From NCBI RefSeq assembly GCF_027484505.1, contig NZ_JAIXSV010000216.1:1-42924 (forward strand): DNA of 42,924 nucleotides. The letters run 5' to 3'. The translations under genes were made by a program, and so were the position numbers. The stretch is from Asticcacaulis sp. (GTDB lineage Bacteria > Pseudomonadota > Alphaproteobacteria > Caulobacterales > Caulobacteraceae). This document shows, in pieces, positions 13,095-42,924 of the stretch. Position 1 is the first letter of the stretch; each line of letters starts with the position of its first letter. The notes below the pieces were generated by a model, which worked only from the letters and a program-made list of their open reading frames with translations, was not told where the DNA came from and did not search any database.

Positions 13095-13147
13095 GCAGGT
13101 TTAGTCCGAAAATTTCGTTTTCTGTCATTTTTGTCAAAATTTTTGGC

Positions 13148-13170
13148 GGAATTTTTTGAGCCACTCGTTG
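13148..13170 (+). promoter_or_regulatory. Candidate ECF-sigma promoter upstream of the second receptor
   Basis: GGAA (13148-13151), 14 bases, CGTTG (13166-13170), identical in words and spacing to the candidate before the sigma gene. It implies the second receptor gene is a direct target of the sigma factor at 8352-8945, with a leader of about 60 bases. Confidence 0.55.
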
Positions 13171-13237
13171 GGACAGTCAGAAAGGGGACAAGTGCCTCTT
13201 TTTCAGACAAATTATAAACCCAGACGAGGAAATACTC

Positions 13238-24471: not shown

Positions 24472-24493
24472 CGGCGGCTCAGTTGAGCCGCCG
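24472..24493. terminator. Bidirectional stem-loop between dabA and the beta-helix gene
   Basis: CGGCGGCTCA-GT-TGAGCCGCCG is a perfect 10-base-pair stem with a 2-base loop, lying between convergent stops. TAGAGC and GCTCTAA flank it, the same terminal words as in the repeat at 22109-22234. The minus-strand gene's stop codon lies in the stem. The T-rich flank toward AATTATTTC supports termination for dabA. Confidence 0.7.
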
Positions 24494-26218: not shown

Positions 26219-26231
26219 GGCGGTATTCCTT

Positions 26232-27326: not shown

Positions 27327-27341
27327 GCTGGTTACGCCTGT

Positions 27342-30300
27342 TTAAAATTTCTTTGTTACGCTGAGGGAATAGGTGATGCCGTCGTAATCTGCAACGCGGT
27401 TAAAGGCCTCGACGCCTTCGTACTCCTCGCGCCGCGAATTGGTGATATTATAGACCTCAAGGCGCACCTCCGTCGTCGCATTGGGCGTGTAAGCACCGGA
27501 GAAGTCGAGCTGACCACGCGGCCGCACACGGCTGGAGGAGCCGGTAAAGGTCGAGCCGCCTTCGAGCAGGATATCGGACGCGTAGTTATAGGCCAGACGC
27601 GCCTGCCACTTGTCGTCTTCGTAATAGCCGATCAGGTTATAAGTGCTGTCGGCCACGCCATAGAGTTTGGAGCCATTGGCCCCGCTGGAGGTGACCTTCG
27701 TGGCGTTGAAGACCATGCCGAAATTCTTCCAGAGGCCGGGCAGGAACGAGAAGTCCTGCTGGACCTGGAATTCAAAGCCTTCGACCGTAATGGCGTTCGG
27801 GTCATTGATGGTGCGGTTAATCGTGATGCGCTGATTGCCGAGGTCGGTCGTGGCCCCCTGCTGAATGCGGCAGAAGCCCGTGCCATCGACATAGAGCGGC
27901 CCGAAGGTTTGACCCTCCGCGCTGAAGCTCTGCCCCACCGGGCAGTAGTTGTTCTGCAGGACGATGTTGTTTTCGATCTTTTTGTGGAAGTAACCCAGCG
28001 CCACCACATTGCCGCGGCGATTATACCACGACAGGCCCAGATCAAACGCCTTGGAGCTGCGGGGTTTCAGGTCGAAGCGGTTCATGTCGATGCGGATGGA
28101 GCTAAGCGACTCGCCCGTATCCGGATCGACATTTTCCAGCACGCGGGTGGGGGCTGGTGAAAACTCCACCATATCAAAGGCTTCAAACGTCTCGTAATAG
28201 GCGGCGCGCGCCACCAGCTTCGGTGTCAGATCGACGATCAGATTCATCGATGGCAAAAGCGCATCATAGCTGCCACCCGCCGGTTCCGGCGGCAGGAAGT
28301 AGCCGGGGCGGAAGTCGGTGCTGGTGAAGCCCAGAGCCTGATAGAAGTTCAGCGCCTGATCCTCGATCAGGCCCGTCAGGTCGGCCTTGACGTAGCGCAG
28401 GCCCAGATTGCCGCGCACCTTAAGGTCCATCACCTCGGAGAAGTCAAAGCGCGTCAGGGCGAAGGCTTCGAGGTTTTCGCGCGAGGCGCGGAAGTTCTGA
28501 CCCGCCACGCGGTTGAGCGGGAAGCGCTGGATCATGCCCGACAGTTCGTTGCGCGGGGCCAGCTCAAGGATTTTCGCATAGGTGATGCGGTTGCGCGCCG
28601 CCGGCGTCAGCTCCGGGAAGAAGGTGGCCAGTTGCGCCGCCGTCATGGTGAAACCGACATTGGTTGGCACCGTGTTGAGCACCGGGAAGATCTGTTGCTG
28701 GATCAGGCGGTAATCGACCGACCAGAAGTTATCAATCTCGGCATTGGGCGCGCCTGAGCCAAAGAAGTTACCACCCTTGGTCACCGCGTCGTTCAGCTTG
28801 AAGATGTCGTTGGTCAGGTTGTTGAGCTGAAGGCCCAGATTGGCGTTTTCCTGATAGATTTGCCGCGCCTTTTCCTTCGAATAATAGACGCCGAATTCGA
28901 CGCTGGTGAGGGGGCCGAAATCGAGTTCGCGTGCCGCCTTCAGGTCCAGCGCATAGAGGTTGCGCCGCACGCGATGATTGGCTCCGCTGGCGGTAAAGAC
29001 GACGTTTTCCGGCCGCAGACCATTGCGCGCCTGAATGGCGTTGCCGGCGCTGACTGTATAGGGGCCCACAACGTTCAGCAGGCGCGAGGGCAGGTTGAGA
29101 TCGAGACGGTAGTTTTTGTAATCGCCAAGGCCGGTATCAAGCACGGCGGTGATGCCATTGGTCGTATCGTCAATGCCGTCGCCATTGGTGTCGGTGCGGC
29201 CCGTCGTCGGCTGAACACGCTGCTCATAGAGGTATTCGTCGCGCGTGCCCAGGGCTTCGGAAAGCGTGCCAATGGCATCAATGCGCCAGGCCCCGGTGCG
29301 GAAATTGATCTGCGGATAGAGGGCAAAGCTTTCGTCAACCGATGGCATGCCGCGGTTGCCGATGGGCAGTTGCACGTCGCTGGCCTGCACCTTGTTGACC
29401 ACATAGACGTTTTCGATAGTGCCGTCGGAGCCGCGGTCGAACTGTCCGACCTTCACCGGATTGCTGAGCGGCGTGACAATGCCGGTCGTGTCCGAGGCAA
29501 AGGCCGTCAGGATGTCGAGATTGGCCTCATCCAGATCGCGGCGCGTCGCAATGGCGTCGAGGCGCACATTCAGGGCGTCATTGACGCGCCATTCAAAGCC
29601 CGCGGCACCCGACAGGCGATAGCCGTCGGAGGTGCGCGAATATTGCCGCACTTCGGAGGGATAGACGACCTGATTGGCGACGCCGTCCGTGGTGGCCGGG
29701 ATAGCGAAGGCGGGATTGCCCGCCGCCAGCTGCGTCAGGCGGGCCTGCGTATAGGCCGTATAGGCATTGATGCGGATGGTGTCGCGGCGGAACAGCTGGC
29801 GCGAATAGGACAGGGTGCCGTAGATGCCAAAATCCGGTGACAGCTTCTTCGAGCCGGTGACGAAGAAGGCGGGGTTCAGCTTGGCCGTTGTCTCTTCCCA
29901 TTGGGCTTCGGCGCGGAAGACGCCGCCTTCTTTACGCGACAGGGCCGGGCGGATGCGCAGGTTGACAACCGAGCCCAGCCCCCCGGCCGGCATGTCGGCC
30001 GAGAAGGATTTGACCACATCGGCCCCGCCAAATATCGAAGCGTCATAGATGCCGAACGGATTGCCTGAACCGCGGGTCCCCAGAGTCGGCGCGGCGATGC
30101 TTTGCCCCATCACGGTCGTCTTGGTGTATTCGCTGGGCAGGCCGCGCACGCTGATCGTCGCGTCACGCCGGTCGTCGGAGCGGTTGATCTGCACACCGGG
30201 GATGCGTTGCAGGGCCTCCCCCAGATTGAGGTCGGGGGTCGAGCCGATGTCATCGGCGGAGATGCCGTCGAGGATGACATCGGATTTGCGGCGGATTTCC

Positions 30301-30500
30301 AGCGCGTCATTCAGCGAGCCGCGAATACCGCGCACCACCACGACTTCGACGCCGTCGTTAGCGGTAGCGGGCTCTGCGGTCGGACTGGTCTGTGCCATGG
30401 CGGGGTTCAGCCCGGCCAGAAGGGTAAGGGCGGAAGCGGCGACGGTTGACAGGCAGGCCGCCTTGAAGGGCCGGTGGCCCGTCAGGAAAGATGGCATCAT
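27342..30500 (-). CDS. TonB-dependent receptor for a probable acidic oligosaccharide
   Basis: This 1052-residue outer-membrane receptor has a signal sequence ending PAMAQ, a TonB-box-like VEVVVVRGIRGS and plug motifs STPDLNLGEALQRIPGVQINRSDDRRDATISVRGLPSEY. The barrel ends ITYSLSVTKKF. Residues 437-445 (DTNGDGIDD) form an EF-hand-like or thrombospondin-like calcium loop in what should be an extracellular region. There is no STN domain. GGAGGA lies just upstream of the paired ATGs. As first gene of an operon with LacI and the beta-helix enzyme, and divergent from an esterase and an ExuT-like carrier, it most likely imports an acetylated, uronate-rich oligosaccharide. Confidence 0.9.
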   Translation of the reverse strand: MMPSFLTGHRPFKAACLSTVAASALTLLAGLNPAMAQTSPTAEPATANDGVEVVVVRGIRGSLNDALEIRRKSDVILDGISADDIGSTPDLNLGEALQRIPGVQINRSDDRRDATISVRGLPSEYTKTTVMGQSIAAPTLGTRGSGNPFGIYDASIFGGADVVKSFSADMPAGGLGSVVNLRIRPALSRKEGGVFRAEAQWEETTAKLNPAFFVTGSKKLSPDFGIYGTLSYSRQLFRRDTIRINAYTAYTQARLTQLAAGNPAFAIPATTDGVANQVVYPSEVRQYSRTSDGYRLSGAAGFEWRVNDALNVRLDAIATRRDLDEANLDILTAFASDTTGIVTPLSNPVKVGQFDRGSDGTIENVYVVNKVQASDVQLPIGNRGMPSVDESFALYPQINFRTGAWRIDAIGTLSEALGTRDEYLYEQRVQPTTGRTDTNGDGIDDTTNGITAVLDTGLGDYKNYRLDLNLPSRLLNVVGPYTVSAGNAIQARNGLRPENVVFTASGANHRVRRNLYALDLKAARELDFGPLTSVEFGVYYSKEKARQIYQENANLGLQLNNLTNDIFKLNDAVTKGGNFFGSGAPNAEIDNFWSVDYRLIQQQIFPVLNTVPTNVGFTMTAAQLATFFPELTPAARNRITYAKILELAPRNELSGMIQRFPLNRVAGQNFRASRENLEAFALTRFDFSEVMDLKVRGNLGLRYVKADLTGLIEDQALNFYQALGFTSTDFRPGYFLPPEPAGGSYDALLPSMNLIVDLTPKLVARAAYYETFEAFDMVEFSPAPTRVLENVDPDTGESLSSIRIDMNRFDLKPRSSKAFDLGLSWYNRRGNVVALGYFHKKIENNIVLQNNYCPVGQSFSAEGQTFGPLYVDGTGFCRIQQGATTDLGNQRITINRTINDPNAITVEGFEFQVQQDFSFLPGLWKNFGMVFNATKVTSSGANGSKLYGVADSTYNLIGYYEDDKWQARLAYNYASDILLEGGSTFTGSSSRVRPRGQLDFSGAYTPNATTEVRLEVYNITNSRREEYEGVEAFNRVADYDGITYSLSVTKKF

Positions 30501-30564
30501 GGGTGTTCCTCCGCGGGCCTTATTTTATCTTCGCCCGGCTATGGGTATGGCGTAAATCGAATCC

Positions 30565-30576
30565 GATACCGGTGTC
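30565..30576. promoter_or_regulatory. LacI-type operator, left copy (GATACCGGTGTC)
   Basis: GATACCGGTGTC is a near-palindrome centred on CCGG, 65 bases before the receptor start. Its exact reverse complement is at 30654-30665. Confidence 0.65.
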
Positions 30577-30653
30577 AAGTTTGAATCTGGCGCTAAATCC
30601 TTTGTCTTTAAAGAAAGGAATTCGACTTAGGTCGTAGATTGGGGATTAAAATA

Positions 30654-30665
30654 GACACCGGTATC
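30654..30665. promoter_or_regulatory. LacI-type operator, right copy (GACACCGGTATC)
   Basis: This is the exact reverse complement of 30565-30576, centred 89 bases away and 91 bases before the esterase start. Two sites in one divergent promoter would let a LacI tetramer loop the DNA and silence both operons together. Confidence 0.65.
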
Positions 30666-30755
30666 TTTTTTTGATTACCTCCCGGCATAACTCTGGGCAA
30701 ACCTCTGCGCCTGTGCGCAGATGGGCAAAACAAGAGTGAATACAGGAAGACACGC

Positions 30756-32753
30756 ATGATCAGGAAGACCGCCCGACGGGCTGCGGTCATCGGGGCGGGC
30801 CTTATGGCGCTGACCTCAGCCGCGAGCGCCCAAACCCCGCAACCCTCACAGACCCCGCAAACCGCGCTCAGAATCGACCCTTTGTTTGGCGATCATATGG
30901 TGCTTCAGCGCGGTAAGCCCGTCAGCCTGCGCGGCGATGCGCCTGCCGGAGCGACCATCACGGTGCGTTTTGGGGCCGCCTCGGCCACCGCCAAAGCGGA
31001 CAGCGGCGGGCAATGGCGCGCCACCCTGCCGCCTGTCGCGGACGGGACCAATGGCACAGTAGAGGTGAGCGCGTCGGACGGCAGCCGCCTCGCGCTGAAA
31101 GACGTGGTGGCGGGCGATGTCTTCCTCTGTTCGGGTCAGTCGAACATGGACCTGTCGGTCGGCGATACCTCCTACCCCAAGCGCACGGCCGAAGAGGGGC
31201 AGGGCAAGCCCATTCGCCTGTTTAAGGTCAAGCGCACAGCCAGCCCGCGCGCCGAGCGCTTTGTAACGCCGGAACAGGGGTGGGCGCTGGCCGGGCCGGA
31301 GGCTTTGCCGGGCTTTTCCGCTGCCTGCTGGCATATGGCGCGCACAATGGCCGCCGCCAATACCGGGGCCCCCATCGGTCTGGTGCAGGCCTCGTGGGGG
31401 GGCACCTCGATCGAAGACTGGATGGCTCCGGCGGTTCTCGGCCAACGCGCGGACTATGCCGCCGATATCAAGCGGCTCAATGCCTTCGCGGCTGATCCGA
31501 AGGCGGCAACGGCGGAGCTGATTGCGGCGACGGACGTCTGGGCCAAAACCGCCGATGCGGCGGCCTCTGACTGGCACACCCCGGCCTTTGATGACTCTCA
31601 GTGGCCGCAAATGCCGCTGCCCGGCACATGGGAGCGGTCGGGCATCGCCGCCTTGCGCGCCTTTGATGGCCTGATGTGGTATCGCCATAGCGTCGAGCTG
31701 ACGGCGGAACAGGCGGGCAAACCCGCCATCCTGCGGCTGGGGCGCATTGATGAGCGCGATCAGGTGTGGGTCAATGGTCAGGTGGTCGGCGCAACGCTGC
31801 TGGGCAGCGACCCCCGCGTCTATACCCTTCCCGCAGGTCTTCTAAAGGCCGGGCGCAATCTCATCGCTATCCGCGTGCTCGATGAGCGCGGGGCCGGCGG
31901 GCTGATGGGTAAGATGGGGGAACTGCGCCTTGAGCTGAGTGGGGCTCAGGCGCTCGATCTGTCCGGGCCGTGGCGCTATAAGACCGGGTCAGAGCGCCGC
32001 AACTGGAAGACGCCGCCGCCCTTCGTGCCGTGGGCCGCGCCGCGCGGCGTCAGCATGTTGTGGAACGGCATGATCGCCCCGCTCGACGGTTTTGCGCTGA
32101 AAGGCATCGCCTGGTATCAGGGCGAAACCAATACGGCCGAGGCGGCCACCTATGCCGGGCTGCTGGACGGCTGGGCGGCCTCGTGGCGGTCGTTTTTCCA
32201 CGATCCGGCCCTGCCGGTGATCATCGCGCAATTGCCGGGCTATGGGCCGCGCAGCGCCGTGCCGAGCGATAATGACTGGGCAAGGCTGCGGGAAGCGCAG
32301 CGCCTGACCGTGGCCAGGGACCCGCACATGGGCCTTGCTGTCCTGATCGATCTCGGCGTCTCCTATGACATCCACCCGGCGCATAAGGATGAGGTCGGGG
32401 CGCGTCTGGGTACTGAGATGCTGCGCGTCGCCTATGGCCGTCCGCTGTTGCGCGCGCCATCACCGGTCAGGGCCGAAGCCGCCGCTGACGCTATCCGCGT
32501 GCGCTTTACCGATACGGGCGGCAGCCTGATCGCCTACGGCTCGCACGAGGCCGCGACTTTTGAGCTGTGCGACGCGGGCGGTAAATGCCGCTTCGTTCCG
32601 GCGCAGGTCGAGGGCGACACCGTCCGCCTGCCCGCCGACGCTTCTGCGCGTCAGGTGCGCTACGCCTGGCAGGGCTCACCGCCGGTCAATCTCTATGGCA
32701 AGAGCGGTTTACCGGTCGTGCCTTTCAGCCTGCCCCTCGCACCGGGCTCATAA
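30756..32753 (+). CDS. Sialate O-acetylesterase-type SGNH esterase with inserted jelly-roll domain
   Basis: This 665-residue secreted esterase has signal peptide IRKTARRAAVIGAGLMALTSAASAQ. The SGNH/SASA active site is split as usual: CSGQSNMDLSV with Ser129, QASWGGTSIEDW with the oxyanion Gly, WYQGETNT, and DIHPAHKDEVG with Asp538 and His540. Between the halves, about residues 265-400 form a beta-galactosidase-like jelly-roll (WERSGIAALRAFDGLMWYRHSVEL ... LGRIDERDQVWVNGQVVGATLL), known in this family. It likely removes acetyl groups from imported glycans so that the lyase or hydrolases can act; despite the family name, sialic acid need not be the substrate. It diverges from the receptor operon across the LacI operators. 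Confidence 0.85.
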   Translation: MIRKTARRAAVIGAGLMALTSAASAQTPQPSQTPQTALRIDPLFGDHMVLQRGKPVSLRGDAPAGATITVRFGAASATAKADSGGQWRATLPPVADGTNGTVEVSASDGSRLALKDVVAGDVFLCSGQSNMDLSVGDTSYPKRTAEEGQGKPIRLFKVKRTASPRAERFVTPEQGWALAGPEALPGFSAACWHMARTMAAANTGAPIGLVQASWGGTSIEDWMAPAVLGQRADYAADIKRLNAFAADPKAATAELIAATDVWAKTADAAASDWHTPAFDDSQWPQMPLPGTWERSGIAALRAFDGLMWYRHSVELTAEQAGKPAILRLGRIDERDQVWVNGQVVGATLLGSDPRVYTLPAGLLKAGRNLIAIRVLDERGAGGLMGKMGELRLELSGAQALDLSGPWRYKTGSERRNWKTPPPFVPWAAPRGVSMLWNGMIAPLDGFALKGIAWYQGETNTAEAATYAGLLDGWAASWRSFFHDPALPVIIAQLPGYGPRSAVPSDNDWARLREAQRLTVARDPHMGLAVLIDLGVSYDIHPAHKDEVGARLGTEMLRVAYGRPLLRAPSPVRAEAAADAIRVRFTDTGGSLIAYGSHEAATFELCDAGGKCRFVPAQVEGDTVRLPADASARQVRYAWQGSPPVNLYGKSGLPVVPFSLPLAPGS

Positions 32754-32782
32754 GCCGTTCCCGTGGCTGCGCGTGACAAGGC

Positions 32783-32820
32783 CCCGTCTTTGGCCCATGA
32801 TCGGGCAAACAAAAGACGGG
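32783..32820 (+). promoter_or_regulatory. Stem-loop between esterase and transporter genes
   Basis: CCCGTCTTT (32783-32791) pairs with AAAGACGGG (32812-32820), with an inner GCCC (32793-32796)/GGGC (32803-32806) stem. It ends 11 bases before the transporter ATG. It may attenuate, terminate partially or protect one half of the message. Confidence 0.5.
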
Positions 32821-32831
32821 ACAGGTAAACG

Positions 32832-34052
32832 ATGGAAACGGGCGCGCGGCGCGGACCATGGCGGGTCGTGGGCCTTATCTTTGTGGCCTCCTGCCTGACA
32901 TATATGGACCGTCAGATGTTCGGCCTGCTCAAGCCGATGATGCAGGCCGAACTGGGCTGGTCCGAAATCGACTATTCCGGCGTCGTGATCGCCTTTCACG
33001 CGGCCTTTGTGGTGGGTTTTCTTACCTTTGGGCCTTTGATGGACCGTGTGGGGGCGCGGCTGGGCTATGCCGGGGCCTTCACCCTGTGGGCGGCGGCGCA
33101 CACCCTGCTGGGACTGGCCACCACAACCGCGCAGTTTGGCCTGATCCGCTTTTTGTTGGGGGTGGGTGAATCCGGCACCTTTCCGGCGCGTCTGAAGGCG
33201 ATTTCCGAGGGGTTCCGGCCACAGGAGCGGGCGCTGGCCATCGGCCTGTTCAACGCCGGCTCGGCCTCCGGGGCCCTGCTCACTCTGGCGCTCGTGCCGT
33301 GGCTCACCCAGAACTATGGCTGGCGCGGGGCGTTTCTGATCACGGGCCTCGTCAGCTTTTTATGGCTGATCCTGTGGTTCAGAACATACAAGCGGCCACA
33401 GACGGCGGAGGCACCGCGGCCCGTTACGCCACCAAGCTGGTCCACACTGGCGCAGGTGCTGCGGACGCGGCGCGCCTGGGTCTATATTGTGGTGAAGTTC
33501 CTCACCGTGCCCGTGTGGTGGCTTTATCTGTTCTGGCTGCCGGACTTTCTTTATCGCACCCACAGCCTGGATCTGCGGCAGTTTGGCGTCCCGTTATTGC
33601 TGATCTTTCTGCTGGCCGATTTTGGCAGCATCATCGGCGGCTGGGCCTCGGCTCGGCTGATGGCGCGTGGCCTCAGCGTCGGGTCCGCCCGCAGCCGCGT
33701 GATGTTCGTCTGCGCGCTGGTCATCCTGCCTTTGATCGCGGTGCCGCTCAGTCCGTGGCTGTGGCTGTCGGTTGTGATCGTGGCGTTGGCGGCGGCGGCG
33801 CATCAGGCCTTTTCGGCCAACCTGCTGGCCGTGCCGTCGGACCTTTTCCCGCCGGAGGTGGTCGGCAGCGTCGTCGGCCTTGGCGGGGCGGCGGGGGCAG
33901 TGGGTGCGATGTTGATGGCGCTGTTTTCAGGCGTGGTGCTGGAATATACCGGCTCCTACAGCCTGATCTTTTTCGTCGCGGGTACGGTCTATCTGGCCGC
34001 GGTCGGCGTTTTGCATCTGTCGCGGGTCTATGCCGCCCAACCCCAAGCGTAA
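32832..34052 (+). CDS. MFS transporter, hexuronate (ExuT-like) type, second copy
   Basis: This 406-residue, twelve-helix carrier has TYMDRQMFGLLKPMMQAELGWSEIDY at helix 1 and GVGESGTFPARLKAISEGF near helix 4, clearly homologous to the transporter at 1335-2657 over its length, with shared WWLYLFWLPDFL and LLADFGSIxGGWAS blocks. It has a shorter N-terminus than its relative. It would carry the monosaccharide or disaccharide uronate released by the esterase, lyase and hydrolase set across the inner membrane. It follows the esterase by 78 bases, with a hairpin in the gap, and is probably in the same LacI-controlled transcript. Confidence 0.85.
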   Translation: METGARRGPWRVVGLIFVASCLTYMDRQMFGLLKPMMQAELGWSEIDYSGVVIAFHAAFVVGFLTFGPLMDRVGARLGYAGAFTLWAAAHTLLGLATTTAQFGLIRFLLGVGESGTFPARLKAISEGFRPQERALAIGLFNAGSASGALLTLALVPWLTQNYGWRGAFLITGLVSFLWLILWFRTYKRPQTAEAPRPVTPPSWSTLAQVLRTRRAWVYIVVKFLTVPVWWLYLFWLPDFLYRTHSLDLRQFGVPLLLIFLLADFGSIIGGWASARLMARGLSVGSARSRVMFVCALVILPLIAVPLSPWLWLSVVIVALAAAAHQAFSANLLAVPSDLFPPEVVGSVVGLGGAAGAVGAMLMALFSGVVLEYTGSYSLIFFVAGTVYLAAVGVLHLSRVYAAQPQA

Positions 34053-34847: not shown

Positions 34848-35978
34848 ATGCCTATGTACGACATAGCCATTATCGGTTCGGGGATAGTCGGGCTGGCGCA
34901 CGCCCTGATGGCGCTGCGGCGGGGGCTGCGGCCTGTGGTGATCGAGCGTCAGGCCGCCCCCATTGGGGCGTCTATTCGCAATTTCGGTTTCGTCACCGTG
35001 ACAGGACAGGGGGAATCCGACACCTGGCGGCGGGCGCGACGCAGCCGCGACATCTGGGCCGAGATCGCTCCACAGGCCGGGATCGAGATCATGCAGCGTG
35101 GGCTGCTCGTCACCGCGCAGCGTCCCGAAGCCATGCAGGTGCTGGAAGCCTTCGCGGCGCATACGATGGGTGCGCAGTGCCAGATTCTGACGCCCGATGC
35201 GGTGCGCGCGACCTATGCCGGCATCGGCGCTGCCCTTGAAGGCGCTCTTTACAGCCCGCACGAGCTGCGCGTGGAATCGCGCACGGCCATACCGCGTCTG
35301 GTGCAGTGGCTGGCGCACAACGGCGTCACCTTCCTGTTCGATACGGCGGCGCTGACGGTAGACGGTACCGAGGTCGTCACACCGCAGGGACGCGTGCGCA
35401 GCGAAGCCGTTATTGTCTGCCCCGGCGACGACCTGACCCACCTCTATCCTGACCTCTATGCCCGCGAGGGCGTGACTCGCAGCCAGTTGCACATGCTGCG
35501 TCTGGCGGCACCGGGCTTTGATCTGATCTGCCCGCGCATGTCCGACCTGTCTCTGGTGCGTTATCGCGGCTATGCCGAGCGCCCGGAAAGTGCGGCGTTG
35601 AGCGCGGTATTGGGTCGCCAACAGCCGGCGCACCGGGACGCCGGTGTGCATCTGATCGTCACCCAGAGCGCCGATGGCTCGCTGATCGTCGGCGACAGCC
35701 ATCATTACGGACGTGCCCCCGAACCTTTTTACGACGTGACGGTCGAGGCGCTGATCCTCGATGAGTTCCGGCGCGTGCTGGGTATCGAGCCGCCGCCTGT
35801 GACGGAGCGCTGGCTCGGTACCTATGCCAGCGCTGCCGAAGACCTGATGCGTCTGTCACCCGCTGAGCGGGTACGGCTGGTCGTGGTGACCAGCGGCACC
35901 GGAGCCTCCACATCTTTTGGCATTGCCGAAGAAACGCTCAATGATCTGTATGGTAAGGAAATCTCGCATGACCACTAA
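34848..35978 (+). CDS. FAD-dependent oxidoreductase of the phosphonate-linked (TIGR03364) type
   Basis: This 376-residue DAO-fold flavoprotein has the Rossmann motif IAIIGSGIVGLAHALMALRRGLRPVVIER at residues 6-34, then APIGASIRNFGFVTVTGQ (the Asn-Phe-Gly segment typical of this clade) and, near the C-terminus, LVVVTSGTGASTSFGIAEETL. Members of this clade travel with phosphonoacetaldehyde hydrolase and are proposed to oxidise 2-aminoethylphosphonate or N-substituted forms to phosphonoacetaldehyde. Here phnX follows with an 11-base overlap, which fits that role and would replace the PhnW transaminase. Start choice is between ATG 34848 and ATG 34854; the AAGG at 34844 favours the second. Exact substrate is inferred from neighbourhood. 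Confidence 0.8.
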   Translation: MPMYDIAIIGSGIVGLAHALMALRRGLRPVVIERQAAPIGASIRNFGFVTVTGQGESDTWRRARRSRDIWAEIAPQAGIEIMQRGLLVTAQRPEAMQVLEAFAAHTMGAQCQILTPDAVRATYAGIGAALEGALYSPHELRVESRTAIPRLVQWLAHNGVTFLFDTAALTVDGTEVVTPQGRVRSEAVIVCPGDDLTHLYPDLYAREGVTRSQLHMLRLAAPGFDLICPRMSDLSLVRYRGYAERPESAALSAVLGRQQPAHRDAGVHLIVTQSADGSLIVGDSHHYGRAPEPFYDVTVEALILDEFRRVLGIEPPPVTERWLGTYASAAEDLMRLSPAERVRLVVVTSGTGASTSFGIAEETLNDLYGKEISHDH

Positions 35979-36750
35979 ACCCGTACACCCTAAGGCCGTT
36001 ATCTTTGACTGGGCCGGGACCATGGTCGATTTTGGTTCTCTGGCCCCGGTTATCGCCATGCAGCAGGGTTTTGCCGCCGCGGGCGTAGAGGTGAGCGAAG
36101 CGGAGGTTCGCCTGCCCATGGGGCAGGCCAAGCGCGATCACGTCGCCGCCCTGATGGCCCAGCCTGCCGTGGCGCAACGCTGGGAGGACCGGTTCCGACG
36201 CCTGCCGACCGACGCGGATATTGAGCGCATCTATGCCCATCTGGATGAGCTGATGCGGGCGGCGGGGACGGCACGCGCCACCCTCATTCCGGGGGCGCGC
36301 GCCACCTTTGAACAGTTGCGCACTGCCGGTATCCGCGTCGGGTCCTCCACCGGCTATACGCGCGCCATGATGACGCCCATTCTGGCGGCCGCTGCGGCGC
36401 AGGGTTATGAGCCGGAGCTGGTCGTCTGCGCCGGAGAAACGCCGCAGGGCCGCCCAGCGCCGCTGATGATCTGGAAAAATCTGGTCGAGCTGGGCGTATG
36501 GCCCGCAGCGGATGTGGTGGTGGTCGATGACGCGCCTGTTGGTATCGCGGCGGGTAAGGCGGCCGGGGCCTACACGATTGGCTTGGCGGCTAGCGGCAAT
36601 GAGCTGGGCCTGACCGAAGAGGCCTTCGCCGCCCTTGAGGCGGCCGAGCGGTCGCAGAGACTTGAGGCGGCACGCACGGCGCTTTATGCCGCCGGGGCCG
36701 ATGCGGTGCTCGATACGGTGGGCGATCTGCCGCAGTGGCTGGGGCTTTGA
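35968..36750 (+). CDS. phnX: Phosphonoacetaldehyde hydrolase PhnX
   Basis: This 260-residue HAD-superfamily enzyme cleaves the C-P bond of phosphonoacetaldehyde to acetaldehyde and phosphate. The key residues are present: nucleophile Asp14 and Ala16 in IFDWAGTMVD, the Schiff-base lysine Lys55 in MGQAKRDHV, the cap-side PGARATFEQL and STGYTR segments, and the acidic VVVVDDAPVGIAAGKAAG loop. Spacing matches Asp12 and Lys53 of the Bacillus enzyme. ATG 35968 is preferred; it overlaps the oxidoreductase gene by 11 bases, so the pair should be made together. No PhnW transaminase or phosphonate ABC transporter is visible in the window. Confidence 0.92.
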   Translation: MTTKPVHPKAVIFDWAGTMVDFGSLAPVIAMQQGFAAAGVEVSEAEVRLPMGQAKRDHVAALMAQPAVAQRWEDRFRRLPTDADIERIYAHLDELMRAAGTARATLIPGARATFEQLRTAGIRVGSSTGYTRAMMTPILAAAAAQGYEPELVVCAGETPQGRPAPLMIWKNLVELGVWPAADVVVVDDAPVGIAAGKAAGAYTIGLAASGNELGLTEEAFAALEAAERSQRLEAARTALYAAGADAVLDTVGDLPQWLGL

Positions 36751-36902: not shown

Positions 36903-37679
36903 ATGTTTATTCTCCCTCGGGGCCGTATGCTTCAGGATACCCGCCAGTCTGAAATCTATAACCTGCTTCAGGTGCACCGCACCTGTACCATCACCGATCT
37001 GGCGCAGCGTTTTGATGTCAGCGATGAGACTATCCGCCGAGATATCCGCCAGCTCGAAGAGGAGGGGTTCGCCTTCCGCGTCCGCGGCGGGGTCACGCTG
37101 AAGGAAACGGCGGCCGAGGCCCCGTATCTGGTTCGCCGCAATCAGAATGCCGAGAAGAAACAGGCTATTGCGCTTAAAGCGGCGGCCCTTGTCGAAGATG
37201 GTATGACCATTTTGATCGACTCTGGATCGACCTCCTACTGGCTGAGCCGCGCCCTGACCAAACAGCGCAACCTGATTGTCATTACCAATGCGCTGGACGT
37301 GGCGCGTGAGATGACAGGACGCAATGGTTGCAAGGTCTACTTTGCGGGCGGCGAAATCGACTACGATTATCAGTCGTGCTTTGGCCCGGACACCGAGGCC
37401 TTTATGGGCCGGTTCACGCCGGAAATCGCTTTCTTTGCTATCGGGGCCGTGGACTCACGGCGCGGTCTGCTCGACTTCCATTTTCCGGAAGCCTCGCTCA
37501 AATCGGCGATCTGTGCACAGGCCTCGCGCGTGGTGGCTCTGGTCGATTCCACAAAGTTCGAGCGGCAGGGCATTATAAAGGCGCTCGATTTCAGGCAGAT
37601 CGACATTTTCGTCACCGATCAGACGCCACCGCCGCAATTGCTTGAGGCGCTCAACGAGGTCGAGATTCTGGTCGCCTGA
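36903..37679 (+). CDS. DeoR/GlpR-family transcriptional regulator
   Basis: This 258-residue regulator has a winged helix at about residues 26-63 (CTITDLAQRFDVSDETIRRDIRQLEEEGFAFRVRGG) and a sugar-phosphate-type sensor domain (GMTILIDSGSTSYWLSRAL, LIVITNALDVAREM, VYFAGGEIDYDYQSCFGP, FFAIGAVDSRRGLLDFHFPEASLK, VALVDSTKFERQGIIKAL). I chose ATG 36903 because upstream frame extension would cover the operator; ATG 36927 is also possible. It lies 152 bases after phnX and 234 bases before the fourth receptor. Identical operator words before it and before the receptor make it the likely regulator of both. Confidence 0.88.
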   Translation: MFILPRGRMLQDTRQSEIYNLLQVHRTCTITDLAQRFDVSDETIRRDIRQLEEEGFAFRVRGGVTLKETAAEAPYLVRRNQNAEKKQAIALKAAALVEDGMTILIDSGSTSYWLSRALTKQRNLIVITNALDVAREMTGRNGCKVYFAGGEIDYDYQSCFGPDTEAFMGRFTPEIAFFAIGAVDSRRGLLDFHFPEASLKSAICAQASRVVALVDSTKFERQGIIKALDFRQIDIFVTDQTPPPQLLEALNEVEILVA

Positions 37680-37913: not shown

Positions 37914-40703
37914 ATGAAGATGCTTATGACAGGGGCCGCCGCTGGCGCGCTGTTCTTCATGGCTGCGCCGACCTACGCGCAGACCGCAACGCCCGCCGCT
38001 CCCAAAGCCGGTCAGGCCGAAAGCGACACTATCGACACCGTCGTTGTCACGGGCTATCGCGGCTCGCTGACCAAGGCGCGCAAGCTGAAGCGTGAATCGA
38101 ACGTCATCAAGGACGTGATCGTCGCCGAAGACATGGCCAAGTTCCCGGAACTGAACTTGGCGGAATCACTGCAACGTCTGCCGGGCGTGCAGATCAACCG
38201 CGAAGCCGGTGAAGGCCGCCGCATCAGCCTTCGCGGTCTGGGGCCAGACTTTGCCCGCGTGCAGCTCAACGGCATGGAAGTGCTGGGCAATGTGGACTCG
38301 GCGCAGGACAGCCGTGGCCAGCGTTCGCGCGACCGCGCCTTTGACTTCAACATCTTCGCTTCCGAACTCTTCTCGCGCGTCGAGGTCGAAAAGACCTATC
38401 AGGCCGCGCAGCACGAGGGCGGCATGGCCGGTACGGTCGGCCTGTTCACGGGCAAGCCCTTCGATTACGCGCCGGGGACCAAGGGTGCCGTTTCGGTGAA
38501 AATCGGCACCAATGAGTACACGAAAGACACCCAGCCGCGCATCGCCGCCCTCTACAGCCGCAACTGGGACGACGTGTTTGGCGTCACTCTGTCGGTGGCT
38601 TATGGCAAGCGCGAAACGACCGAGCAGGGCCACAACACCTATAACTACTCGAAGCCCAGCGCTTCGACCCTGTCAGGTCTGGTAACCAAGGGCCTCAATA
38701 TCTCCAAACTCAGCGCCGCGCAGCAGGCCAAGTTCCTGTCGGGCGATCTCTATTTCGCCGACGGCAACCGCATTTCGTCGTGGAACGCCGAGATGGAACG
38801 TCTGGGCGTCACCGCCGCCGTGCAATGGAAGCCGATGGAAAATCTGCTCCTGACGCTGGATGCCCTGCATGGCGAATTCAAGACCAAGCGCAGTGAACTG
38901 CACCTGGCTACCCGCCCGCTGGCTTCCACGGGTTCAGTGGCCTTTGATACTGCCGCTGGCGGTGTCTGGCCGGCCGCGTTCCAGACAAATTCGGTGATCA
39001 ACAATATCGCCTGGGACAGCAGCAACTACGTCACCATGACTGACGTGACGAACATGACCTTCGGCAGCGAAAATCGCCGTTCGCTGAACGAAAACAAGTT
39101 CAACCAGCTGGTGCTGACCGGTAAGTGGGACCTCTCCGATCGCCTGTCATTGGACGGTCATATCGGTTATGAAAAGTCCACCTACGAAACGCCTTATGAT
39201 GACAAGCTCTATATGCGCGCCAAGGGCAACCTGATCGCCAATTACGGTTCGGACGGGCGTTCGGCGTCGTTCCAGTATCCGGGCTGGGATACGACCAATC
39301 CGGCCAACTATGCCCTCGATTCCTTCTACTATCGCGGTTTCAATAACTCTTCGGAGCTGAAGGAAGCCGTCTTTAATGGTCGTTACTCCCTGTCGGACGT
39401 GTGGACCCTGCGTGCGGGCGTGGCCTATCACGAATTCACTCAGGACGGCATCGACAAGTTCTATGACGACAATGTCAACGGCACCCGCAGCAAGATGCGC
39501 GGCAAGCCGGTGGCCGACGTCACGACGGTCTTCACCAACAACTTCGGTTCGTGGCTGATCGGTGACTACGCCAAGACCTTTGCCAAGTATAACGAATATC
39601 ACCGCTTTGGCCCGAATACCGATGGGACGGGCGGCGCGCTTCAGGACATCGAAAACGTCTATACGACCAGCGAAAAGACGACCTCGGTCTATGTGCAGGC
39701 GGATTGGGACAGTGACATTGCCGGAAAGCGCTTCCGCGGTAATGTCGGCCTTCGCGGCTATCAGACCGACACCAACTCGACAGGCTGGATTCAGGGCGAC
39801 TCCTACGCCTATCTTGGCACGACAGATGTGGATGGCAGCTACAGCGGCGTCCTCCCGACCCTGAACACGGTGCTCGAAATGACGCCGGAAGTTATGGTGC
39901 GCTTCTCGGCCACGCAGAACCTGAACCGTCCGGGTATGGGTTCGATGGCTGCCAAGGGCAGCGCCTTCAAGGACGAGACCAGCGGCGAAATCAGCGCGTC
40001 GCGCGGCAATCCGAACCTGAAGCCCTATAAGGACACGACGCTCGATCTGGCCGTTGAATACTACTTCGGCAATGTCGGCCTGCTGTCGGCGGGTGTGTTC
40101 CAGAAGGACGTCAAGAACTTCATCGGGTCTGCCGATTACAGCTCAAAGGATAACAACGCCCTGACCTTTGCCCAGGCGGGTATTCCCATCTCTTCGATCC
40201 CCGGTGCGACGGCGAATACGATCATCAACGACTTCTCCATGCCGATCAATATTGAAGGCACGCAACGCATCAAGGGGATCGAACTGGCCGGTCAGGCGCA
40301 GTTCACCTTCCTGCCCGTGCCGTTCGATAAGTTCGGTATGCAGGCCAACTATACGTCGCTGGATATTCCGGAAAAGATCACCGGCATTTCCAAGACTAGC
40401 TATAACGCCACGGTGTTTTACGAAACCGAGATTTGGGGCGCGCGCGCCTCGCTCAGCCATCGTGACCTGTGGTACAGTGGTCGCAACGACTCTGTGATGA
40501 GTGCCAGCACCCGTGGGTTTGAGGCAGGCACCTATGTCGATGCCTCGGCCTTCTGGAATGTCAGCAAGCAGCTTCAGCTCACCCTGAACGGCATCAACCT
40601 GACGAATCAGAAGGATACGCAGTTCTGGGGTCAGAACCGCTACCTCTATAACCAGAACCAGAGCGGCGCCACCTACATGGTCGGCCTCAGCTATAAGTTC
40701 TAA
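37914..40703 (+). CDS. TonB-dependent receptor, Xanthomonas/Caulobacter (TIGR01782-like) subtype
   Basis: This 929-residue receptor has signal peptide KMLMTGAAAGALFFMAAPTYAQ, a TonB box near DTVVVTGYRGS, plug motifs AKFPELNLAESLQRLPGVQINREAGEGRRISLRGLGPDFARVQLNGMEV, and a C-terminus TYMVGLSYKF. The RGLGPDFxRVQLNGM plug and FNIFASELFSRVEVEKT block mark the Xanth/Caul receptor clade, many of which import plant-derived carbohydrates. The ATG at 37914 follows GGAGA; a longer in-frame opening at 37794 would lack a signal peptide. It is preceded by DeoR-type half-sites and followed, past a terminator-like hairpin, by the sulfotransferase/hydroxylase cassette. The ligand is not evident; proximity to phosphonate genes may be coincidental. 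Confidence 0.9.
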   Translation: MKMLMTGAAAGALFFMAAPTYAQTATPAAPKAGQAESDTIDTVVVTGYRGSLTKARKLKRESNVIKDVIVAEDMAKFPELNLAESLQRLPGVQINREAGEGRRISLRGLGPDFARVQLNGMEVLGNVDSAQDSRGQRSRDRAFDFNIFASELFSRVEVEKTYQAAQHEGGMAGTVGLFTGKPFDYAPGTKGAVSVKIGTNEYTKDTQPRIAALYSRNWDDVFGVTLSVAYGKRETTEQGHNTYNYSKPSASTLSGLVTKGLNISKLSAAQQAKFLSGDLYFADGNRISSWNAEMERLGVTAAVQWKPMENLLLTLDALHGEFKTKRSELHLATRPLASTGSVAFDTAAGGVWPAAFQTNSVINNIAWDSSNYVTMTDVTNMTFGSENRRSLNENKFNQLVLTGKWDLSDRLSLDGHIGYEKSTYETPYDDKLYMRAKGNLIANYGSDGRSASFQYPGWDTTNPANYALDSFYYRGFNNSSELKEAVFNGRYSLSDVWTLRAGVAYHEFTQDGIDKFYDDNVNGTRSKMRGKPVADVTTVFTNNFGSWLIGDYAKTFAKYNEYHRFGPNTDGTGGALQDIENVYTTSEKTTSVYVQADWDSDIAGKRFRGNVGLRGYQTDTNSTGWIQGDSYAYLGTTDVDGSYSGVLPTLNTVLEMTPEVMVRFSATQNLNRPGMGSMAAKGSAFKDETSGEISASRGNPNLKPYKDTTLDLAVEYYFGNVGLLSAGVFQKDVKNFIGSADYSSKDNNALTFAQAGIPISSIPGATANTIINDFSMPINIEGTQRIKGIELAGQAQFTFLPVPFDKFGMQANYTSLDIPEKITGISKTSYNATVFYETEIWGARASLSHRDLWYSGRNDSVMSASTRGFEAGTYVDASAFWNVSKQLQLTLNGINLTNQKDTQFWGQNRYLYNQNQSGATYMVGLSYKF

Positions 40704-40714
40704 TCGACCCGGTG

Positions 40715-40756
40715 GACGCCCTCTTCTTCAGGAAGGGGGCGTCTTCTGCCTTTTTG
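40715..40756 (+). terminator. Intrinsic terminator/attenuator between receptor and sulfotransferase
   Basis: GACGCCC-T-CTTC (40715-40726) pairs with GAAG-G-GGGCGTC (40732-40743) around a 5-base loop, followed by TTCTGCCTTTTTG. It begins 11 bases after the receptor stop and would leave the downstream cassette with reduced, read-through expression. Confidence 0.7.
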
Positions 40757-40769
40757 TACAAGAGCGTTC

Positions 40770-41408
40770 ATGATCGTTTCCCACCGTCATCGCTTCATCT
40801 TCGCCGCCGTCCCCAAGACCGGCACCCATTCGGTGCGGCAGGCCCTGCGCGAGCAGATGGGTAATGAGGATGTTGAGCAGGTGGGTCTGTTCGTCAACAA
40901 GCGCTTTCCGTGGGACGATCTGGCGGCCATCCGCCACGGCCATCTGTCTCTGCAACAGGTCCGGCCCCATCTGGGCGAAGAGGCCTTTGCCGCCTATTTC
41001 AAATTTGCCTTTGTGCGCAATCCGTTTGACCGCTTCGTCTCCTATTGCGCCTTCATGACGCGCGACAGCGACGTCTTCGCGCAGCGACCGCGCGACGTGA
41101 TGCAGCATTTCCTGTTCGTCGCGCCGCCGGAGGGTCATATCCTGTTTCAGCCGCAGTCGGTTCTGCTGGTCGATGCCGACGGGCACACCCTCCTGACCGA
41201 CCGTGTCGGGCGTGTCGAAGACATGCAGGGCTCTTATGACGCCATCTGTGCGCAGATCGGTCTGGCAACCCGCCCGCTCGACCGCGTCAACGGCAGTCGT
41301 CACGGCGATTATCGCCACTACTATGACCGGAGCTTGCAAGACGCTGTCGCGGCGCGCTACGCTTTGGATATCGACCTGTTTGGCTATACGTTCGAAGGCC
41401 TCAAATGA
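40770..41408 (+). CDS. Sulfotransferase-family protein
   Basis: This 212-residue protein has no signal peptide. It carries the two PAPS-binding motifs of the sulfotransferase-2/carbohydrate type: the 5'-phosphosulfate loop VPKTGTHS at residues 14-21 and the 3'-phosphate motif FVRNPFDRFVSYCAF at 81-95. It is shorter than most such enzymes, so it may be a compact form or act with its TPR-sulfotransferase neighbour. The stop shares ATGA with the next gene. The acceptor could be a glycan, lipid or protein; its place behind a receptor gene suggests a modified outer-membrane product or imported substrate, which is inference. Confidence 0.8.
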   Translation: MIVSHRHRFIFAAVPKTGTHSVRQALREQMGNEDVEQVGLFVNKRFPWDDLAAIRHGHLSLQQVRPHLGEEAFAAYFKFAFVRNPFDRFVSYCAFMTRDSDVFAQRPRDVMQHFLFVAPPEGHILFQPQSVLLVDADGHTLLTDRVGRVEDMQGSYDAICAQIGLATRPLDRVNGSRHGDYRHYYDRSLQDAVAARYALDIDLFGYTFEGLK

Positions 41409-42019
41409 GCGAACCCGCTGCCAATCCGCGCAAGACGACGGGGGTGCGCGCGCTCGGAAAGGTCGATGTGGCGGCCCTGACCGAAGCCGTTCTAAGCATT
41501 CCCGAAGCCGTGTGGGCGGCGCAAAATGCGGCCAAGCCCAACAAGTTCGGTGTACTCGAAGACACCCGTCATATCGTCTTTCGCTTTGTCGATAGTCCGC
41601 GTGACTGGCGCGGGTCGCACGACCGGCCGCTATGGGCGGGCTGGCGCGCGCGGCTTGAGCCGGTGCTTACGGCGGCGGTGCGCGATTATGGTTATGCCCG
41701 CGGCGTCTTTCCGCGCGTCATGCTGGCACGCATGCCGGTGGGCGGGGTTATCCAGCCGCATATCGACGCCAATCCGGCTGCCAAATGGCCGCACAAGATC
41801 CATGTGCCCCTGACCACAAATCCCGGCGTCGTCTCCTTTTTCGGCCGGGCGGAGCGCCATTTCGCGGTGGGCGAGGCCGTCGAGGTCGATAATCTGGGGC
41901 CGCACTGGGTGCGCAATGCGGGCGACTGCGACCGCATCCATCTGATCTTTGAATATTACGACGCTGATCAGCCGGACCCGGCGTGGCTTGCGCCCTTTTT
42001 GCGCGGTGGCGCACGATGA
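41405..42019 (+). CDS. Aspartyl/asparaginyl beta-hydroxylase-like 2-oxoglutarate oxygenase
   Basis: This 204-residue cytosolic protein matches the Asp/Asn beta-hydroxylase cupin. IQPHIDANPAAKWPHKIHVPL (residues 117-136) gives iron ligand His119 with a nearby Asp121, and LGPHWVRNAGDCDRIHLIFEYYD (164-186) gives His167 and the 2-oxoglutarate-binding Arg177. Known relatives hydroxylate protein Asp/Asn or free amino acids and related small molecules. Lys131 stands where many members have an arginine before the second strand. It overlaps both neighbours by ATGA (start with the sulfotransferase, stop with the TPR protein), indicating tight co-translation of three gene products. The substrate is unknown. 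Confidence 0.8.
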   Translation: MSEPAANPRKTTGVRALGKVDVAALTEAVLSIPEAVWAAQNAAKPNKFGVLEDTRHIVFRFVDSPRDWRGSHDRPLWAGWRARLEPVLTAAVRDYGYARGVFPRVMLARMPVGGVIQPHIDANPAAKWPHKIHVPLTTNPGVVSFFGRAERHFAVGEAVEVDNLGPHWVRNAGDCDRIHLIFEYYDADQPDPAWLAPFLRGGAR

Positions 42020-42924
42020 GCCTGATGGCCGAGCGTGACCGTCGCCTGCGTGACGCCCAGACCCTGCGCGCGCAACAGCGGCTGCCTGACGCCCTGCACG
42101 CCCTGTCAGAACTGGAGGCGCACTATCCGCGTTTCAGCCGCCTTTATCAGGAACGTGCTCACTGCCAGATTCAATTGGGCAACGCCCCGGCGGCCATCGA
42201 CGCCCTGCGTCAGGCCGTGGCGCTCAATGCGACCCTGCCGGCCAGTTGGGATATGCTGGCGCAGCTTTACCGGCTGATGGGTGACAAGGGGCAGGCGGAG
42301 GCCGCCGAGTGGCATCTGGAGACGCTGCGCCAACTGCCGCCGGAAATTGTGGTGGCTAACAGCCTCTATGCCGACGGCGATCTGGAACCGGCCGAAGAGG
42401 TGCTGCGGACCTATCTGGAGCAGGCGGACGGCAATGTCGGCGCTCTGCGCCTTCTGGCGCGCATTTGCTTTGAACGCGGGGCGTCCGAAGAGGCCGAGGC
42501 GCTGCTGGCGCAGGTGTTGGAACTGGCCCCCGACTATCACGCGGCGCGTTTCGATTACGGCATGGTGCTGCTGCACCTTCAGAAGCCTCTGGCGGCGCGA
42601 CAGGAGGCCGAGCACCTGCTACGCGTCGATCCGGACAATCGCGACTATCTCAAACACTATGGCGCGGCCTCGGTGGCGCTGGGCGATCATGAGCCGGTCA
42701 TCGACCTCTATGAACGGCTGCTGGCCACGACGCCCCCTGCGGGACCGGAGGCCGCCGACCTGCGCCTGTGGCGGGCCAATGCGCTGAAGGTCACGGGGCG
42801 TCAGGCCGAGGCCCTTGCCGACTATCAGGCCTCGCTCGTCGCGCGACCCGACAATGGCGTCGCGTGGTTCAGTCTGGCCAATCTCAAGACCTATCGCTTC
42901 TCCGAGGCCGATATCGCCCGCCTG
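42016..42924 (+). CDS. TPR-containing sulfotransferase, N-terminal part (cut by window edge)
   Basis: An open frame from ATG 42016 runs through the window end (303 codons, no stop). It contains consecutive tetratricopeptide-like repeats, for example LHALSELEAHYPRFSRLYQERAHCQIQLGNAPAAIDALRQAVALNATLPASWDMLAQLYRLMGDKGQAEAA and EEVLRTYLEQADGNVGALRLLARICFERGASEEAEALLAQVLELAPDY. It ends with VAWFSLANLKTYRFSEADIARL, the linker that in this family leads into the C-terminal sulfotransferase domain, which therefore should lie just beyond the edge. Its start overlaps the oxygenase stop (ATGA). The catalytic half is predicted, not seen. Confidence 0.75.
   Translation, partial: MSLMAERDRRLRDAQTLRAQQRLPDALHALSELEAHYPRFSRLYQERAHCQIQLGNAPAAIDALRQAVALNATLPASWDMLAQLYRLMGDKGQAEAAEWHLETLRQLPPEIVVANSLYADGDLEPAEEVLRTYLEQADGNVGALRLLARICFERGASEEAEALLAQVLELAPDYHAARFDYGMVLLHLQKPLAARQEAEHLLRVDPDNRDYLKHYGAASVALGDHEPVIDLYERLLATTPPAGPEAADLRLWRANALKVTGRQAEALADYQASLVARPDNGVAWFSLANLKTYRFSEADIARL

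Follow-up and report, generated by a model that had tools for sequence, protein, structure and literature searches.

A sulfotransferase and oxygenase cassette behind a TonB-dependent receptor in Asticcacaulis, and the wider pairing of TPR-sulfotransferases with such receptors

The window analysed here, a stretch of 42,924 bp that is one entire contig of Asticcacaulis sp. (NZ_JAIXSV010000216.1, assembly GCF_027484505.1), ends within a cassette of sulfotransferase and 2-oxoglutarate oxygenase genes that follows the gene for a TonB-dependent receptor (TBDR). One of the cassette enzymes is a sulfotransferase with an N-terminal tetratricopeptide repeat (TPR) arm, here called TPR-ST, and the constant partner of full-length TPR-STs (profile score of at least 500) is a TBDR and not one ligand pathway: at 68 of 72 such loci, drawn from the order Caulobacterales and from a wider phylum sample, the two genes directly adjoin. 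This pairing gives full-length TPR-STs a concrete candidate substrate, the neighbouring receptor, and the recurrence of one cassette enzyme beside such receptors in many bacteria hints that bacteria may chemically decorate their own uptake receptors.

The cassette and its receptor

The TBDR is encoded at positions 37914 to 40703 (+ strand; ATG at 37914, stop at 40703) and matches TIGR01782 at 633.2 bits (cut-off 310), with a PF07715 plug, a PF00593 barrel and, recognised by eye, a signal peptide and a TonB box. It is followed on the same strand by ST1 (40770 to 41408), a Sulfotransfer_2-family protein matching PF03567 at 51 bits (cut-off 22) over residues 1 to 92 of 212; by OX1 (41405 to 42019), a 2-oxoglutarate oxygenase of the Asp/Asn beta-hydroxylase family (PF05118, 37.4 bits, cut-off 22.6) that is 95% identical to OX1 of Asticcacaulis currens; and by the N-terminal TPR part of TPR-ST (42016 to 42924), which is truncated by the contig end and matches TPR families alone within the window. 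ATGA overlaps join ST1 to OX1 and OX1 to TPR-ST, and by eye the enzymes look soluble and ST1 is without a signal peptide. The original prediction, made from the letters of the window, had given these gene coordinates and overlaps, and they are exact on re-check; it had also named an upstream TonB receptor, a middle gene coding for a 2-oxoglutarate oxygenase with H119, H167 and R177, and two sulfotransferase-type proteins, all of which are borne out, with D121 to be added to the oxygenase residues.

The cassette had been described as three genes, and a fourth exists. In A. currens (L003; loci, genomes and contigs carry the prefixes L, G and C), the TPR protein has 637 residues and a C-terminal Sulfotransfer_3 domain (PF13469), and the gene after it codes for a 596-residue protein in which an Asp/Asn-hydroxylase domain (OX2; 54.5 bits against PF05118) is fused to a second Sulfotransfer_3 domain. 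Contig C257, from the same assembly as the window, also carries a TPR-ST C-terminal part with PF13469 and an OX2-sulfotransferase. Extension past 42924, which had been proposed, therefore yields the sulfotransferase domain in both places but no clean continuation: C257 overlaps the window end (42516 to 42924) over 409 bp at only 93% identity, with gaps, and is thus a variant or second copy. Two versions of the cassette locus are present in the assembly, from co-binned strains or as two copies, and the window contig (C42) and C257 are not merged in this analysis. In Asticcacaulis sp. DW145, plasmid NZ_AP029026.1 carries a complete cassette with the OX2-sulfotransferase fusion as a single open frame. 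OX2 of L003 and L010 includes the sulfotransferase fusion, and in most other loci OX2 is ~315 residues long; such fusions occur in Asticcacaulis, in a different family of the order and in Diaphorobacter. The fusion on the Diaphorobacter sp. HDW4B plasmid (L150, 9380 to 14987; 38% identical over 99%) stands head-to-head with the gene for an IPTL-CTERM surface protein, with a TIGR03032 gene after it. The occurrence of fusions in several lineages supports the coupling of hydroxylation and sulfation that the original prediction proposed, and hydroxylation would come first in the order proposed there.

The cassette proteins look like working enzymes, judging from their conserved motifs. OX1 residues H119, D121, H167 and R177 (HxD...H...R) are invariant in 36 aligned sequences, OX2 residues H101, D103, H149 and R159 in 22, the ST1 stretches P15-K-T-G-T-H20 and R83-N-P-F-D-R-F89 in 26, and TPR-ST PRSGST and E418 in 20; we take the two ST1 stretches to bind 3'-phosphoadenosine 5'-phosphosulfate (PAPS). 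A structure model of OX1 (pLDDT 93.6) has L-proline cis-4-hydroxylase as its nearest solved fold, with a 2-oxoglutarate oxygenase, a nucleoside-antibiotic hydroxylase, proline 3-hydroxylase and AspH lower; in these fold matches OX1 is about 12 to 18% identical to the proline hydroxylases and AspH. The OX2 sequence profile matches L-proline cis-4-hydroxylase best (7.9e-11), AspH following at 0.004 and weaker. Nearest to the TPR-ST catalytic domain are the protein-tyrosine sulfotransferases (TPSTs; 4.6e-10 to 8w5z), and E418, counted along the printed alignment, aligns with the second Glu of the TPST GEET stretch, presumably the catalytic base. ST1 has no convincing solved relative by sequence or fold search; its fold search gives nothing below E 0.001, and the weak matches (SULTs, a bacterial sulfotransferase and heparan sulfate sulfotransferases, best E 0.014) say nothing on its substrate.

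The best 80 of 95 confirmed OX1 relatives were fetched with their loci, in which genes are our own open reading frame (ORF) picks and not annotations. ST1 is called in 78 of the 80, the exceptions being L027 and L070. Cassette loci make up 49 of the 80 (clade A, with Caulobacterales, Sphingomonadales and some assemblies under other labels), and a TBDR is immediately before ST1 in 46; L042 and L043 start just before or inside ST1, and in L027 the receptor is split into three ORFs. TPR-ST and OX2 are both called in 45 of the 49, with L008, L040 and L050 stopping early. The remaining 31 loci (clade B) are mostly from Lysobacter relatives and Sphingomonas, and ST1 accompanies OX1 in 30 of them. 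The neighbourhood survey suggested by the original prediction thus upholds receptor linkage for the cassette loci but not for the 31 others, where this receptor does not adjoin.

Receptor and OX1 also occur together across genomes. In a sample of 200 genomes drawn evenly from the order, G000, G042, G161 and G176 have receptors of at least 77% identity, and a close OX1 is found in the same 4 of 200 (Fisher p = 1.5e-8), the OX1 of G176 being a short piece that ends another contig; further OX1 matches in two other genomes of the order are 60% and 31% identical. A 47 to 50% identical receptor is present in nine genomes, including these four, and in the remaining five OX1 is without a match at 1e-20. 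At the thresholds used, the window's genome contains a single OX1 and no second TPR-ST beyond the C42/C257 pair, so that its 50% identical receptor on C35 is without an adjoining TPR-ST. This paralogue (L116, 3211 to 9028) lies near genes for a cupin-like protein and, by eye, a Ca2+-dependent PI-PLC-like (phosphatidylinositol-specific phospholipase C-like) protein, and has no cassette. Distances of ST1, OX1, TPR-ST, OX2 and the receptor correlate pairwise (r 0.34 to 0.82; 24 to 38 loci), with at most 2 of 500 permutations equally high, a result that common descent alone would also give. A class-wide search of 387 genomes finds receptor plus OX1 in the window's own genome only, which says little because the sample is spread thinly over families. 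The cassette arrangement far exceeds what chance would produce. G137, from a different family of the order, has a 60% identical OX1 directly before a 43% identical TPR-ST (C22, 69743 to 72309).

Between the receptor and ST1 is a terminator-like hairpin (40714 to 40755, + strand; stem 40714 to 40744, T-rich tail after) with a folding energy of -27.8 kcal/mol and a z of -2.74. Stems of at least 10 pairs, with G-T allowed and one mismatch, are present in 44 of 46 receptor-ST1 gaps of more than 30 nt (45 from the fetched loci plus that of the window, the 21-nt gap of L008 being left out) versus 5.4% of mononucleotide shuffles. A strong stem-loop, often with a T-rich stretch after it, is thus found in nearly all cassettes, and its stem sequences vary widely while pairing is retained; its effect is likely to be much receptor and little enzyme. 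Like the fourth gene, the phosphonate and phospholipid context and the wider TPR-ST/TBDR pairing, the hairpin had been missed by the original prediction.

TPR-sulfotransferases beside TonB-dependent receptors

TPR-ST matches at E 1e-40 are present in at least 145 of the 200 order genomes and, in a phylum sample, in at least 112 of 299. For the order, 60 loci (L189 to L248) were taken as about every second match listed, with a few skips, to G164 C1, and six rows of cassette loci were excluded (two of G000, G042 C1, G161 C1:705645 and two of G176 C16); the phylum sample takes the first 40 genomes outside the order among the matches listed, one locus each. At any score, a TBDR is the direct neighbour in 55 of the 60 order loci, on the same strand in 53 of the 55, whereas at offsets 2 to 6 TBDRs occupy merely 6 of 327 gene positions. 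The loci without a direct TBDR neighbour are L224, which is at a contig start, L226, L231, where an OX2-sulfotransferase fusion precedes TPR-ST, L243, where a PF05118 protein is beside a TBDR, and L244. A TBDR adjoins TPR-ST in 18 of the 40 phylum loci, with 17 of 18 at scores of at least 500 and none of two at 400 to 500. Clade B was sampled separately, with 16 loci fetched of 24 TPR-ST matches in 13 genomes, and here the TBDR is a direct neighbour in 5 of 16, is within two genes in 11 of 16, and adjoins two of the three TPR-STs scoring at least 500; the direct neighbour at L181 is a TBDR-like protein missed by the profile, and that at L182 is similar in size and place. A direct neighbour may hide a missed small gene, because the ORF picks at L226 missed two real genes. 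The TPR-ST of L226 (2787 to 7828), without a TBDR neighbour, adjoins CysD-type (PAPS_reduct domain) and CysN/APS-kinase-type genes, which from their family assignments would supply PAPS.

The pairing also holds in the converse direction, scored on coordinates alone with no gene calling. A receptor like that of L198 is present in 66 of the 200 order genomes, and a TPR-ST is within 1 kb in 62 of these; among the other four are two receptor matches that are partly listed (1.2 kb from a TPR-ST), one split between contigs, and one 10 kb away. TPR-ST-linked receptors form ten groups at 38% identity, the cassette's own included. One group accounts for 49 of the 59 linked receptors longer than 650 residues and the rest are in eight further groups, and the TPR-ST/TBDR pairs are not independent events.

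The other neighbours of these pairs vary. A BCCT-type group (two members tested) is near 22 of the 60 order loci, within L191 to L244, an amino-acid permease group is near nine, a DAO-type group near six and a glutamine-synthetase-type group near four (one member of each tested); a single quinohemoprotein amine dehydrogenase is also among the order-sample neighbours. Amine-bearing ligands are a common thread of the pairs, but one confounded by ancestry. Because the linked receptors' other neighbours differ, between permeases, amine catabolism and phosphonate/phospholipid genes, the shared element is the receptor. In four Lysobacter loci (L183, L184, L186 and L187), a PF13759 2-oxoglutarate oxygenase (Pfam) adjoins the TBDR on its TPR-ST side, which gives a trio like that of the cassette with an oxygenase of an unrelated family. 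With different oxygenase families accompanying TPR-ST and TBDR, the pairing of oxygenase and sulfotransferase recurs. Among the matches listed from open-licence PubMed Central (PMC) literature, no paper on the TPR-ST/TBDR pairing was found, and phrase searches for TPR-sulfotransferases themselves gave none either.

Phosphonate, phospholipid and other neighbouring genes

Before the receptor, the window codes on the + strand for a FAD-dependent oxidoreductase of the phosphonate-catabolism type (34848 to 35978; TIGR03364 [HpnW], 397.9 bits, cut-off 285.1), a PhnX phosphonoacetaldehyde hydrolase (35980 to 36750; TIGR01422, 331.8 bits, cut-off 220), and a DeoR/GlpR-type regulator (36903 to 37679; PF00455 and PF08220). 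TIGR03364 and PhnX, both above cut-off, form a 2-aminoethylphosphonate degradation module, and on the DW145 plasmid the cassette is preceded by genes for an HD-domain protein, TIGR03364, phnX and a DeoR regulator. Context was counted in 39 cassette loci of at least 13 kb and 24 stand-alone ST1-OX1 loci, and at least one of seven phosphonate/phospholipid families (TIGR03364, PhnX, phosphonate HD oxygenase, PhnR, phosphocholine-specific phospholipase C, PI-PLC-like and phosphodiesterase) is near 36 of the 39 versus none of the 24, which is an association and not proof because the two groups differ in lineage. Relatives of TIGR03364 are near 12 of the 39, PhnX near 12, the DeoR regulator near 14, DUF5690 near 13, and phosphocholine-specific phospholipase C near 23.

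A small precursor peptide was sought among ORFs of 18 to 90 codons on both flanks of the cassette loci and in the receptor-ST1 gap, and was rejected: the eight most recurrent groups by eye resemble reading frames from either strand of the ST1, OX2, receptor or DeoR genes, in a search that tiny or unlinked precursors could escape. No lasso peptide genes (Asn-synthetase-like cyclase, B1/B2) are among the annotated neighbours, no search having been aimed at them.

Elsewhere, the window codes for a DabA-type inorganic carbon transporter subunit (22250 to 24466; PF10070) and three more TBDR-type proteins, in 9969 to 16183 and 24479 to 34052, accompanied by BNR_4, pectate-lyase-like, sialate-esterase-like, LacI and MFS genes; these two stretches are probably sugar-use loci.

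Candidate substrates and known systems

We tentatively favour the explanation that the cassette enzymes hydroxylate and sulfate the precursor of the adjoining TBDR in the cytosol, because a TBDR is the constant partner of full-length TPR-ST across diverse receptors and nutrient contexts. The receptor would be modified while still an unfolded precursor: the TPR arm of TPR-ST would grip the receptor chain, OX1 and OX2 would add hydroxyls to side chains, and sulfation of these new hydroxyls, or of existing ones such as those of tyrosine, would fall to ST1, to TPR-ST and to the OX2-fused sulfotransferase at loci that have it. The hairpin would keep receptor synthesis high and enzyme synthesis low, and after export the fixed negative charges could act in or near the outer binding site for a phosphonate, phosphocholine or another amine-bearing ligand. 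A broader version is possible though more doubtful, namely that Gram-negative bacteria sulfate, and at elaborated loci also hydroxylate, their own TBDRs in the cytosol before export through a TPR-ST encoded beside each client, with the charges tuning sites for amine-bearing ligands (betaines, polyamines, phosphocholine and aminophosphonates, for example).

Several observations weigh against modification of the receptor. Clade B codes for OX1 without an adjoining receptor at all 31 loci, and none of 13 stand-alone ST1-OX1 genomes tested has a close cassette-type receptor anywhere (in five the best receptor is 34 to 37% identical, and in eight there is none at E 1e-100). The interpretation given in the original prediction is partly supported: the 4 of 200 order genomes that share receptor and OX1 favour it, and these 13 do not. 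All 13 carry some TPR-ST relative, the OX1 proteins of the seven present in the OX1 alignment are 62 to 68% identical to that of the window, and the substrate of ST1 and OX1 may be more general than that of TPR-ST. L020 keeps receptor, ST1, OX1 and TPR-ST with no OX2 called, and distant TPR-STs (score 250 to 400) adjoin a TBDR at one of 20 phylum loci. OX1 by fold and OX2 by sequence have free-proline hydroxylases as their nearest solved relatives, and we know of no precedent for sulfating an outer-membrane protein in the cytosol. At the level of receptor groups, acidic-tyrosine motifs show no significant enrichment (10 versus 13 groups, p = 0.19), nor do F, W, N, D, S, T or H; per-protein means per 1,000 residues are 3.40 for cassette, 3.22 for TPR-ST-linked and 2.04 for unlinked receptors, with a flawed control in which 9 of the 36 'unlinked' receptors are within two genes of a TPR-ST, and moving these to the linked side leaves the difference not significant (13 versus 9 groups, p = 0.16). 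The motif was dropped as support for receptor sulfation. Tyrosines make up 12 of the 96 cassette-specific invariant residues in 46 aligned cassette receptors, which ligand binding explains equally well.

Somewhat unlikely, in our estimate, is that the enzymes make or alter a small molecule, for instance a hydroxylated, sulfated product of amine, amino-acid or siderophore-like type, which would be released and taken up again through the receptor, or brought in by it and altered afterwards. The kinship of OX1 and OX2 with free-proline hydroxylases, the 31 of 80 OX1 loci without a receptor, the phosphonate/phospholipid genes at 36 of 39 loci and the BCCT-type and amino-acid permeases beside other pairs are as expected for this, and such neighbours make a shared class of amine-type ligands conceivable; methanobactin operons, in the excerpts of PMC3621798, also pair a TonB-dependent transporter with a sulfotransferase. 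However, the context genes aside, no biosynthetic core, carrier or exporter is seen among the annotated recurring neighbours (DUF5690 has no assigned role, and most rare neighbours are unannotated), no conserved small peptide gene is present among the top eight ORF groups upstream, in the gap or downstream, the TPR-ST-linked receptor groups are diverse, and the TPR arm and TPST-like domain suggest a polypeptide substrate.

That polypeptide could be another secreted or surface protein or peptide, with the receptor merely co-regulated, which we regard as unlikely. Candidates for such clients are the probably secreted phosphoesterases that recur at the loci (phosphocholine-specific phospholipase C at 23 of 39) and, possibly, the IPTL-CTERM surface protein head-to-head with the Diaphorobacter fusion, and a table in the excerpted part of PMC10040529 has lasso-peptide B2, sulfotransferases and an aspartyl beta-hydroxylase at nearly consecutive cluster numbers. 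Yet no phosphoesterase family is in all cassette loci or beside other annotated TPR-STs, and it is the TBDR that directly adjoins nearly every full-length TPR-ST.

Modification of an envelope lipid or polysaccharide, with the receptor locus serving as a nutrient-responsive storage place, seems more improbable again. The PF05118 members LpxO and OlsC hydroxylate lipids, phospholipase genes adjoin many loci, and the weak ST1 fold matches include heparan sulfate sulfotransferases; LpxO and OlsC carry membrane anchors, however, unlike the cassette proteins, which by eye look soluble, and neither glycosyltransferase nor lipid-synthesis genes are seen among the annotated recurring neighbours. An ordinary neighbourhood of unrelated genes, joined by chance or shared transfer, would suit a cassette that is patchy (4 of 200 order genomes) and plasmid-borne in DW145, but is very improbable and already contradicted by the recurrence of the linkage across ten receptor groups and whichever of the two partners the search starts from.

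If receptors are sulfated as proposed, outer-membrane proteins would have a new class of modification, cloned or modelled receptors would miss part of their binding chemistry, and ligand predictions for many TBDRs would need revision; if they are not, the pairs point to a compound, hydroxylated or sulfated, with a tie to the uptake of amines and phosphonates.

Among known systems, methanobactin operons are like the cassette in having sulfotransferase and TonB-dependent transporter genes in one operon, with the MbnS sulfotransferase thought to act on the peptide imported by way of the MbnT receptor; MbnS is a PF00685 protein, and a PF05118 oxygenase is not named in the excerpts of that account (PMC3621798). 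The cassette differs in that no precursor peptide gene is among its eight most recurrent small-ORF groups. The table in PMC10040529, in the part available, gives receptor, hydroxylase and sulfotransferase clusters of Pontixanthobacter relatives without comment, and their cluster numbers suggest that the genes are adjacent.

TPR-ST shares the PAPS P-loop and the aligned Glu with its nearest solved relatives, TPST1 and TPST2 (for example 3ap1, 5wri and 8w5z), and is unlike them in being soluble-looking, in its N-terminal TPR superhelix, and in its place beside a TBDR gene. OX1 and OX2 have the fold or profile and the Fe/2-oxoglutarate motifs of L-proline cis-4- and 3-hydroxylases and AspH, and differ in being paired with or fused to sulfotransferases, at low identity. 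In relatives of Caulobacter, Sphingomonas and Xanthomonas, loci with TIGR01782 receptors function in sugar uptake and include halogenase, SapC and cupin genes; the cassette has the same receptor class and cytosolic-looking oxygenases beside it, and is set apart by its sulfotransferases and phosphonate/phospholipid genes. The parts of the cassette all come from known families, and modification of the receptor, if proven, would be of a new kind.

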